A DNA stretch of 64,000 nt from Cupriavidus sp. AU9028. Its GTDB lineage: Bacteria > Pseudomonadota > Gammaproteobacteria > Burkholderiales > Burkholderiaceae. Of this stretch, positions 30,163 through 63,343 are shown one piece after another. A program made the position numbers and the translations under genes. The stretch is taken from positions 24,120 to 88,119 of the forward strand of contig NZ_JAIMCG010000019.1 in NCBI RefSeq assembly GCF_019795295.1, read 5' to 3'. Under the pieces are notes generated by a model, which made no database searches, had not been told where the DNA came from, and saw nothing but the letters and a program-made list of their open reading frames with translations. Within the stretch, counting starts at the first letter, position 1, and every line of letters starts with the position of its first letter.

Positions 30163-30207
30163 GTTTTCTCCCCTCTCCCACGTGGGAGAGGGGCCGGGGA
30201 AGCGGGC
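30163..30207 (+). repeat. REP-like palindrome (locus 2)
   Basis: A single unit with stem CCCCTCTCCCAC/GTGGGAGAGGGG, 25 bases after the Kelch lipoprotein stop, in the same orientation as unit 6331-6379. Confidence 0.75.
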
Positions 30208-30255: not shown

Positions 30256-30287
30256 AAAAAAAACCCAAGCCGGTCTGGCCTGGGTTT
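30256..30287 (-). terminator. Orphan intrinsic terminator on the minus strand
   Basis: AAACCCAAGCC (30261-30271) and GGCCTGGGTTT (30277-30287) form an 11-bp stem with one G-U-type mismatch around a 5-base loop. The minus-strand T-run is eight long. No minus-strand protein gene lies upstream of it, which is why I infer a small RNA. Confidence 0.8.
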
Positions 30288-30383
30288 GAATCCACCAAAG
30301 GAGGAGGGTGGAGGAGACACTGGGAGAGAGACAGGCGGCCGCGGAGGCGGTTCACTCGACGCGTCGCTCGCGTGTCGCTCAAT
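30256..30383 (-). ncRNA. Candidate small RNA with an anti-Shine-Dalgarno hairpin loop
   Basis: On the minus strand a perfect TATAAT (30396-30391) with TTGCGT 16 bases upstream (30418-30413) would start an RNA near 30383. It would end at an intrinsic terminator (stem 30287-30261, eight T at 30263-30256), giving about 128 nucleotides. In between, a 5-bp stem (30373-30359) is followed by a CU-rich single strand. Then comes a perfect hairpin, UCCACC/GGUGGA (30312-30307 with 30296-30291), whose 10-base loop is CUCCUCCUUU, the complement of a Shine-Dalgarno sequence. No open reading frame fits. The design (anti-SD loop plus terminator) resembles stress-induced sRNAs such as the alpha-proteobacterial Cuckoo/CcsR type; relationship to any named family is not established. 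Confidence 0.6.
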
Positions 30384-30538: not shown

Positions 30539-30677
30539 GATAGAGTGACGACGCTGGCATAACGGCGGTTGCGGCGCGCTGGACGGCCAGCGCCAAACCC
30601 GCAAAGCGGCGAAAATGCAAGCCCAGGGATCAACTGGCGCCGCCAGCCGGCGTCCGCACCACCAAGGAACTCAAGCG

Positions 30678-31100
30678 ATGGAATGCAAGGTAACGTGGAT
30701 GGGCAACGAAGGCATGAGCTTCGTTGCCCAGACTGGCAGCGGCCATATCGTGGCGATGGACGGCGCACCGGAAGGCGGCGGTCACAATCTGGCGCCGCGG
30801 CCGATGGAAATGGTGCTGCTCGGTACCGGCGGGTGCACCGCCTACGATGTGGTGCTGATCCTGAAGCGGGGACGCCAGGATGTGCGCGGCTGCACCGTCA
30901 AGCTCGAAGCCGAGCGCGCGGGCGAGGACCCGAAGGTCTTCACCAGGATCCACTTCCAGTTCACCGTGACCGGCCGCAACCTGAACCCGGCAGCGGTGGA
31001 GCGCGCCGTGCAGCTGTCGCACGACAAGTACTGCTCGGCGTCGATCATGCTGGCCAAGACCGCGCAGATCACGCACGGCGTGGAGATCGTCGAGGGCTGA
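30678..31100 (+). CDS. OsmC/Ohr-family protein (YhfA-like)
   Basis: OsmC-family proteins are small dimeric thiol peroxidases or stress proteins. This 140-residue member has the two conserved redox cysteines in GTGGCTAYDVV (about 52-58) and DKYCSASIM (about 117-125), matching the YhfA subgroup rather than classical Ohr. The start at 30678 is supported by AAGGAA eight bases upstream; an in-frame ATG at 30615 lacks such a site. A Pho box lies 140 bases before it, suggesting phosphate-starvation control, which is not standard for this family. rnpB converges from the right, only about 20 bases from the stop. Confidence 0.88.
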   Translation: MECKVTWMGNEGMSFVAQTGSGHIVAMDGAPEGGGHNLAPRPMEMVLLGTGGCTAYDVVLILKRGRQDVRGCTVKLEAERAGEDPKVFTRIHFQFTVTGRNLNPAAVERAVQLSHDKYCSASIMLAKTAQITHGVEIVEG

Positions 31101-39229: not shown

Positions 39230-39298
39230 CGTCTTCCACATGCCTGACTTTGGTGCGTTGCAGCACGAAAGCCGCCCCATCCCGAGGCTTTCCTCTAA

Positions 39299-62653: not shown

Positions 62654-63343
62654 TCAATGGGGTTGCGTTGGGTCGGTCGCGGCGGACGCGCCGGCGGCGG
62701 GCACGGGGCCAGCCTTGCGCGGCAGTTCGGCCGGGGCCACCACGCCCATCGACACGATGTATTTCAGGGCGGCATCGACCGTCATGTCGAGCTCGATGGT
62801 GTCGGCCTTCGGCATCATCAGGAAGAAGCCGGAGGTCGGGTTGGGCGTCGTCGGCACGTAGACGCTGACGTACTCGCCCTGCAGGTGATTCTGCACGTCG
62901 CCGCCGGGGCGGCCGGTCAGGAAGGCAATGGTCCAGGAGCCTTCCCGCGGATACTGCACCAGCAGCGCCTTGCGAAAGGCATTGCCGGACGAGGACAGCA
63001 GCGTGTCGGACACCTGCTTGACGCTCGAATAGATCGGCCCCACCACCGGAATGCGGTGCACCAGCGCCTCCCACCAGCGCACCAGGCGCTGGCCGATGAA
63101 GTTGTGCGCCAGCATGCCGACCAGCAGGATGAACAGCAGCGTCAGGATGGCGCCCAGGCCCGGCACGCGCATGCCGAACAGCTGGCGGTCGAACTGCCAC
63201 GCTTCGGGCAGCACCGCCAGGCTCTGGTCCATGGTGCCGATGATCAGGCTCAGCACCCACAGCGTGATGCCGAGCGGCACCAGGACCAGCAGGCCGGTCA
63301 GGAACCAGGTCTTCAGCATCGAGGTTTTCTTGTTGGATGCCAC
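62654..63343 (-). CDS. DUF502 family membrane protein
   Basis: The 229-residue protein starts with GTG at 63343, six bases after AGGAAG, giving [17 protein letters not shown]; an internal ATG at 63319 is the alternative. Two membrane helices (about 10-31 and 62-84) and the family stretch [21 protein letters not shown] (pieces: [15 protein letters not shown], about 95-110) followed by [17 protein letters not shown] are clear. Its role is unknown. It lies between the FmdB-like and aspS genes, a conserved beta-proteobacterial order. The C-terminal tail is Ala/Pro-rich. Confidence 0.88.

Follow-up and report, generated by a model that had tools for sequence, protein, structure and literature searches.

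The closest described systems are S17 of Bordetella pertussis and the double-hairpin small RNAs (sRNAs) ncS03, ncS05, ncS27 and ncS62 of Burkholderia cenocepacia. S17 (S17L/S17S), described beside coq7, is reported to be processed by RNase E, to depend on Hfq and to be controlled by the Bvg mode; its promoter needs no BvgA, and the authors postulate repression in one mode and derepression in the other by a repressor that they do not name (PMC11722255). Its deletion raised about 92 genes, with 70 carrying matching sites and 32 transporter-related genes or operons (PMC11722255). The B. cenocepacia RNAs belong to the Rfam family RF02278 and share a CU-rich single-stranded 5' end (Site 1), a CU-rich loop and a terminator. 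ncS03 and ncS05 show their greatest rise in glucose medium (8.0- and 6.9-fold), ncS27 rises 9.7-fold in biofilm and 4.3-fold in glucose, and a common upstream motif of three homologues was reported without identification (PMC5688073). ncS27 lies on the minus strand, facing away from a plus-strand gene (PMC4603805). In these relatives, blocking of ribosome-binding sites is supported (PMC11722255, PMC5688073), and family members are reported to inhibit growth of Escherichia coli when cloned (PMC4603805, PMC5688073). Herbaspirillum seropedicae has four RF02278 members (PMC7011215).

A second body of work concerns PhaR, the sensor protein for the carbon-storage plastic PHB, which in Ralstonia eutropha represses phaP1 without PHB and is drawn to granules as PHB accumulates (PMC11332829, PMC12542648), and which can activate too, as at phaP3 (PMC12849132). 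Its consensus has been given as TGCRNYGCASMA in Bradyrhizobium, on the basis of footprints and bound promoters (PMC6201568), as TGNTGCNNNGCAA in Herbaspirillum (PMC3206438) and as YTKNTGCRNYGCANMAR in R. eutropha (PMC12849132), with further PhaR motif literature in PMC12542648. MmgR of Sinorhizobium meliloti, an sRNA whose promoter contains a PhaR (AniA) site and which is PhaR-repressed and tied to PHB (PMC8401924, PMC12542648), clearly sets a precedent, in another class, for control of an sRNA by PhaR, with a different RNA of the alphaproteobacterial alpha-r8 family. Full-text searches gave, among the matches listed, no paper joining PhaR to the RF02278 family; the available papers naming RF02278 have no PhaR in their main text, and the available part of the S17 paper makes no mention of PhaR, phasin or PHB (PMC11722255).

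We analyzed a window of Cupriavidus sp. AU9028 DNA (the whole stretch of 64,000 nucleotides), where an sRNA gene comprising promoter, CU-rich hairpin and terminator occupies the minus strand from 30418 to 30255. The first-pass annotation of this DNA, made from the letters alone, had placed the candidate correctly. Its promoter, with the -35 box TTGCGT at 30418-30413 and the -10 box TATAAT at 30396-30391 separated by a 16-nt spacer, was found as described there. A generic sigma-70 scan called no promoter at the sRNA, so that the promoter call is based on conservation. The position of the -10 box makes an A at 30383, 8 nt further on, the likely transcription start. From there a 5' leader (30383-30320), predicted to fold into an imperfect hairpin, would precede the conserved body of the sRNA (30319-30255). 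RNase E probably cuts this leader off, as in Bordetella S17 (PMC11722255), where the leader is longer (a 190-nt precursor in the S17 paper versus about 128 nt predicted here).

The conserved body corresponds to S17S and consists of two hairpins, the second being an intrinsic terminator. It opens with Site 1 (UGUCUCCUCCA, 30319-30309), the complement of AGGAGACA-type ribosome-binding sites, whose final four bases also begin stem 1. Hairpin 1 (30312-30291) pairs TCCACC (30312-30307) with GGTGGA (30296-30291), that is UCCACC/GGUGGA in the RNA, perfectly around a 10-base loop at 30306-30297 (Site 2; DNA CTCCTCCTTT, RNA CUCCUCCUUU). The terminator hairpin has a stem of 11 pairs (30287-30261), and the run of eight T at 30263-30256 gives the 3' U tail; both hairpin and terminator had been read correctly in the first pass. 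Just 3' of the terminator lies a perfect 24-nt palindrome, CCCCTCTCCCACGTGGGAGAGGGG (window 30170-30193), possibly a dispersed intergenic repeat.

The same annotation had called the stretch free of open frames, which needs a minor correction: four mechanical open reading frames (ORFs) of 135-230 aa cross it, and none of the four has a Pfam match, so a protein-coding reading was rejected. Its remark that no minus-strand protein gene would need the terminator fits, none being found between the sRNA and the RNase P RNA (31451-31120, minus strand), the nearest upstream minus-strand gene found. Between them, on the plus strand and divergent from the sRNA, lies an OsmC-like gene (30615-31100, Pfam PF02566) with an uncertain start (30615 or 30678).

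By searching Rfam with cmscan, as the first-pass annotation had proposed, we found that 30319-30255 matches RF02278, “Betaproteobacteria toxic sRNA”, over its full length (model positions 1-64 of 64) with 66.7 bits against a cut-off of 50 (E 3e-11). The RNA itself is therefore clearly a known kind, an ordinary member by sequence and structure of a described family, a point that the annotation had left open. Weak covariance-model matches at the same place, to families sharing the CU-rich double-hairpin style, led to no membership: NmsRb of Neisseria (RF02877) scored 25.0 bits against a cut-off of 52, anti-hemB of Burkholderia (RF02837) 24.3 against 49.5 and ncS16 of Burkholderia (RF02866) 21.7 against 48. 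The comparison with the Cuckoo/CcsR RNAs of Alphaproteobacteria made in the first pass is apt in style, but no such family appeared in the Rfam scan of the stretch at E up to 1.

RF02278 is matched three times in the genome itself, twice above the cut-off, so that the sRNA has several copies per genome as in B. cenocepacia. Among genomes of the same family, 48 of 60 have a match above the cut-off; class-wide, 103 of 369 genomes match at E 0.001 or better and only 3 of 369, our own genome included, pass the cut-off. A search for plasmid copies of the sRNA region gave no match. In other orders of the class, a sibling double-hairpin RNA recurs below the RF02278 cut-off (L327-L341, 43-49 bits), typically with CTCCTCCATCCTCCTTTGGTGG and a GCGCGG/CCGCGC-like terminator with T-run, often with another promoter (TTGACA...ATATTAGAA), and with no Rfam family above its cut-off at these loci. 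Weak RF02278-like matches (33-37 bits) were also seen on the same strand as a phasin domain, some 300-400 nt downstream of it (G045:C15:42799-42872, G026:C1:1638632-1638705 and G048:C20:120447-120505); these are possibly 3'-UTR sRNAs released from phasin mRNAs.

Folding and covariation analyses support this structure. The window has a single instance of the pattern of hairpin 1 with its 10-nt loop, and none of 100 shuffles has any. For the 64-nt 3' part the predicted folding energy is -25.9 kcal/mol (z -3.69), and the 128-nt form has a fold z of -2.86. In an alignment of 60 of the 98 distinct sRNA copies, Site 1 is invariant except for its first base, which is nearly so, and 99.2% of the cells of stem 1 are paired, and two pairs of this stem show changes of both bases (U-A in place of C-G in 24 rows, and mostly G-U in place of C-G in 22 rows). 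The terminator helix is paired at only 80% because some terminators are misaligned by one column. The compensatory changes that the first-pass annotation had asked about are thus present in the stems: both stems together hold 129 double-change cells versus 50.6 in shuffles, with a covariation score of 0.351 versus 0.138, a value that none of 500 shuffles reaches. Counted by pairs, 8 have a double change, a number that 110 of 500 shuffles also reach and that is no better than shuffles.

We then compared the locus with its relatives. At least 120 genome stretches share an identical 28-nt core, GUCUCCUCCACCCUCCUCCUUUGGUGGA. Among the matches listed, 96 of 121 same-core copies have a divergent OsmC gene upstream, at a median distance of 390 nt (two of the 96 exceeding 5 kb), and 20 of the 25 copies without OsmC have less than 1500 nt of upstream sequence. 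The window shows the same arrangement, and its closest fetched locus is that of Cupriavidus gilardii (91.8% identity for RNase P RNA and 88.8% for OsmC). Since two Bordetella loci (L013, L021) and one locus named Burkholderia (L047) also combine core and OsmC, the window copy likely corresponds in position to Bordetella S17 and to Burkholderia ncS27, as judged from the relatives' loci. In the two Bordetella loci, the identical core has OsmC about 1.2 kb upstream and divergent, and a PhaR consensus upstream. OsmC is not named as a neighbour in the descriptions of S17 and ncS27, as far as the available parts of these go. Two further loci may be mentioned: L084 carries two sRNA copies 377 nt apart, with near-identical leaders and the same operator, which is a tandem duplication, and L066, on a metagenome-bin contig titled Klebsiella pneumoniae, combines sRNA, operator and OsmC, so the bin label is probably wrong.

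While the sRNA family is already described, what appears new is a conserved predicted PhaR operator on its promoter. When upstream regions were lined up, a TTGC-RNY-GCA box kept recurring, with the -35 hexamer as its left half. In the window this box, TTGCGTCGCACAA (30418-30406, minus strand; core TGCRNYGCASMA at 30417-30406), takes in the -35 box and extends into the spacer. It matches exactly the published PhaR consensus TGCRNYGCASMA (PMC6201568) and, by hand comparison, agrees with the R. eutropha palindrome YTKNTGCRNYGCANMAR at 16 of 17 positions (consensus from PMC12849132). It looks like a docking site for PhaR on the sRNA promoter. Further exact matches to the consensus occur in the window at 39251-39265 and 63052-63063, one of them being an overlapping pair on both strands.

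With a first operator pattern, TTGCRNYGCACAA, 2 sites were found; it was too narrow, and its widened form gave 43 sites versus 9 for the reversed control. We counted the consensus around the 112 RF02278 copies above the cut-off from 48 genomes, within 200 nt. Upstream, the full consensus was found in 49 of 112 copies and the core TGCRNYGCA in 73, whereas the reversed motif was found in none; downstream, the full consensus was found in 2 of 112 and the core in 8. These core counts, like those by genome given below, include matches in the transcribed leader, off the -35 box (L146, L147, L241, L243 and L244). For the same-core copies, among the matches listed, 87 of 116 had the full consensus within 250 nt upstream, 101 the core and none the reversed motif, 5 of the 121 being left out for short upstream sequence. 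As a control, 200 nt upstream of mechanical ORFs of at least 200 aa contained the full consensus in 13 of 819 cases, the core in 26, the reversed motif in 2 and the reversed core in 15. Mechanical ORFs are often not genes, so the contrast between promoter-like sites is the better control: at the same-core loci, among the matches listed, TTGCNN-N16-18-TANNNT sites near the sRNA carried the full consensus in 80 of 110 cases (core in 89), against 2 of 111 for such sites away from it. The distance from the box hexamer to a -10-like site was 17 nt in 47 of 65 measured cases and is 16 nt in the window.

Known PhaR targets carry the same box. The consensus was found within 300 nt upstream of all 29 phasin genes examined (1 of 30 being left out), in most cases as two copies. 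The phaR loci were a weak positive control, with the full consensus in 9 of 30, two of these (L279, L280) misplaced. The genome itself encodes PhaR (G000:C41), with boxes upstream, and a phasin with two boxes (G000:C9).

The presumed operator and PhaR do not always go together. The full consensus is missing from 63 of the 112 family copies and even the core from 39, and in two genera with PhaR (g15 and g19) no copy examined has the core. Three same-genus copies of the window's type (L153, L207 and L229) have no box, another copy in each of these genomes having one, and the one named Burkholderia copy checked at this locus (L047) has none. At the level of genomes, of the 44 with both PhaR and the sRNA, 35 carry the full consensus, and 41 the core, at one copy or more. 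Among 60 genomes, 44 have both, 4 only the sRNA, 2 only PhaR and 10 neither, a co-occurrence that is confounded by small genomes. The core stands at 70 of 105 copies in genomes with PhaR and at none of 4 copies in three near-complete genomes with no PhaR match, which is suggestive, from few cases, of a box that follows PhaR; genus mates of one of these three (G041) keep both PhaR and box. One genome with no PhaR match that is 83% complete (G053) has the core at 3 of 3 copies. Taken together, the counts show that a PhaR-type operator sequence over the -35 box is widely, not universally, conserved. Given that ncS27 rises more in biofilm than in glucose and that L047 has no box, PhaR cannot be the sole input.

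Next, we considered the targets. The first-pass annotation had proposed that the loop displays an anti-Shine-Dalgarno sequence and that the CU-rich single strands are complementary to ribosome-binding sites; both Site 1 and the loop fit this proposal. The loop carries CCUCCUUU, the same 8 letters as the anti-Shine-Dalgarno tail that ends the 16S rRNA of this genome, the match site being confirmed as the 3' end of the SSU rRNA. In the genome, RGGAGACA-N2-10-ATG occurs at 111 sites versus 3 for the reversed pattern, and AGGAG-N5-13-ATG at 1189 versus 417. From the first 30 of the 111 sites we obtained 29 proteins and scanned 27, leaving out L352 (short) and L362 (same gene as L363). Eight of the 27 genes following these AGGAGACA-type sites encode TctC receptors, and 24 of the 27 in all fall in uptake or carbon/acyl-CoA functions by our own reading. 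A comparison sample gave 1 TctC in 20 (20 of 22 proteins, 29 loci) and is a poor TctC baseline, as it comes from one contig with a secretion/flagellar cluster. The fetched loci were uninformative, with only 2 TctC genes and AGGAGACA before 1 of 920 other ORFs.

At annotated starts in 200 kb of Achromobacter and Cupriavidus plasmid DNA, in stretches picked around TctC hits, a Site 1 complement of at least 7 nt was found at 9 of 60 transport/catabolism genes versus 2 of 115 others, classes that we assigned from product names (exact test 0.0012, a guide only, since p-values treat related genes as independent). This contrast leans on plasmid-backbone genes as the others; in the two metabolic stretches alone, the numbers were 9 of 58 versus 1 of 30 (p 0.08, with the same caution). 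The best Site 1 complement seems biased to carbon-uptake genes, and AGGAGACA may also be simply a common strong ribosome site. Phasin and phaR mRNAs were rejected as targets for want of a long complement to Site 1 or Site 2: a Site 1 complement of at least 7 nt was present at 0 of 28 phasin and 0 of 27 phaR ribosome sites (6 of 250 control ORFs), and Site 2 complements reached at most 7 nt. In this the RNA differs from MmgR, which is reported to lower phasins (PMC8401924).

These observations can be arranged in a putative circuit. Without PHB synthesis, PhaR would sit on the operator and keep RNA polymerase off the sRNA promoter; a site that overlaps the -35 box is in keeping with repression, the argument made for phaP1 (PMC12849132). 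Upon carbon excess, nascent PHB granules would bind PhaR and the sRNA would be released together with the phasins. The transcript of about 128 nt would be trimmed to a stable form of about 64 nt, whose Site 1 and loop, probably with Hfq, would cover AGGAGACA- and GGAGG-type ribosome-binding sites on mRNAs for carbon uptake (TctC receptors) and for acyl-CoA and organic-acid functions. The sRNA would thereby put a brake on the import of carbon for as long as the store is filling. Toxicity in E. coli would follow from expression without PhaR; in a set of 14 control genomes, not itemised, the PhaR family was matched in Caulobacter alone. We consider it likely that the window encodes an RF02278 double-hairpin sRNA with predicted repression by PhaR, derepression upon PHB formation and carbon-uptake targets. 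Its extension to the Burkholderiales at large is tentative and falls a shade short of probable. There, PhaR would directly control most “toxic” double-hairpin sRNAs, PHB storage would switch on an anti-Shine-Dalgarno RNA that shuts carbon import and activation via a shared AGGAGACA code, PhaR would be the missing repressor of S17, and the RNAs would be toxic in E. coli because PhaR is absent there.

Other explanations were weighed against this reading. The sRNA could be just as the literature has it and the TGCRNYGCA box could be the site of a different regulator, or part of an extended -35 element in strong promoters. Several copies that keep the box only in part and the two PhaR-bearing genera without it are in line with this, and similar palindromes of other regulators are not separable by sequence. 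However, the same box, mostly doubled, precedes 29 of 29 genes for phasins, which are known PhaR targets, and its presence at only 2 of 111 promoter-like sites elsewhere (among the matches listed) means that it is no general part of the -35 element; we regard this explanation as unlikely. It is highly improbable that the stretch makes no separate sRNA and is merely a terminator beside CU-rich DNA that arose by chance, or a 3' UTR, given the RF02278 match, the covariation, the conserved promoter and synteny, and the absence of a minus-strand protein gene between the sRNA and the RNase P RNA.

Control by PhaR set aside, the RNA might be a general ribosome blocker, an anti-Shine-Dalgarno mimic that slows growth and has no defined carbon regulon. 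The identity of the loop with the 16S tail over 8 nt would suit such a role, as would the attenuated growth reported upon ncS27 overexpression (PMC5688073), the name that the family owes to toxicity in E. coli (PMC4603805) and a carbon bias of Site 1 complements that reaches only p 0.08 within the metabolic stretches. Against it stand the roughly 92 genes raised by S17 deletion, most with sites and many transporter-related (PMC11722255), the report that S17S is hardly toxic in E. coli (PMC11722255) and the uptake or carbon/acyl-CoA functions of 24 of the 27 scanned AGGAGACA genes. We find this account rather improbable, and retain as likely the reading of an sRNA with predicted PhaR repression and carbon-uptake targets.

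A PhaR link would explain what controls the RF02278 sRNAs, and it is relevant to Cupriavidus necator, in which the riboregulation of PHB has been described as undeciphered (PMC8401924). PhaR, if the predicted site is true, would be a candidate for the role of the postulated S17 repressor (PMC11722255), and the site would tie a widespread Burkholderiales sRNA family to carbon storage.
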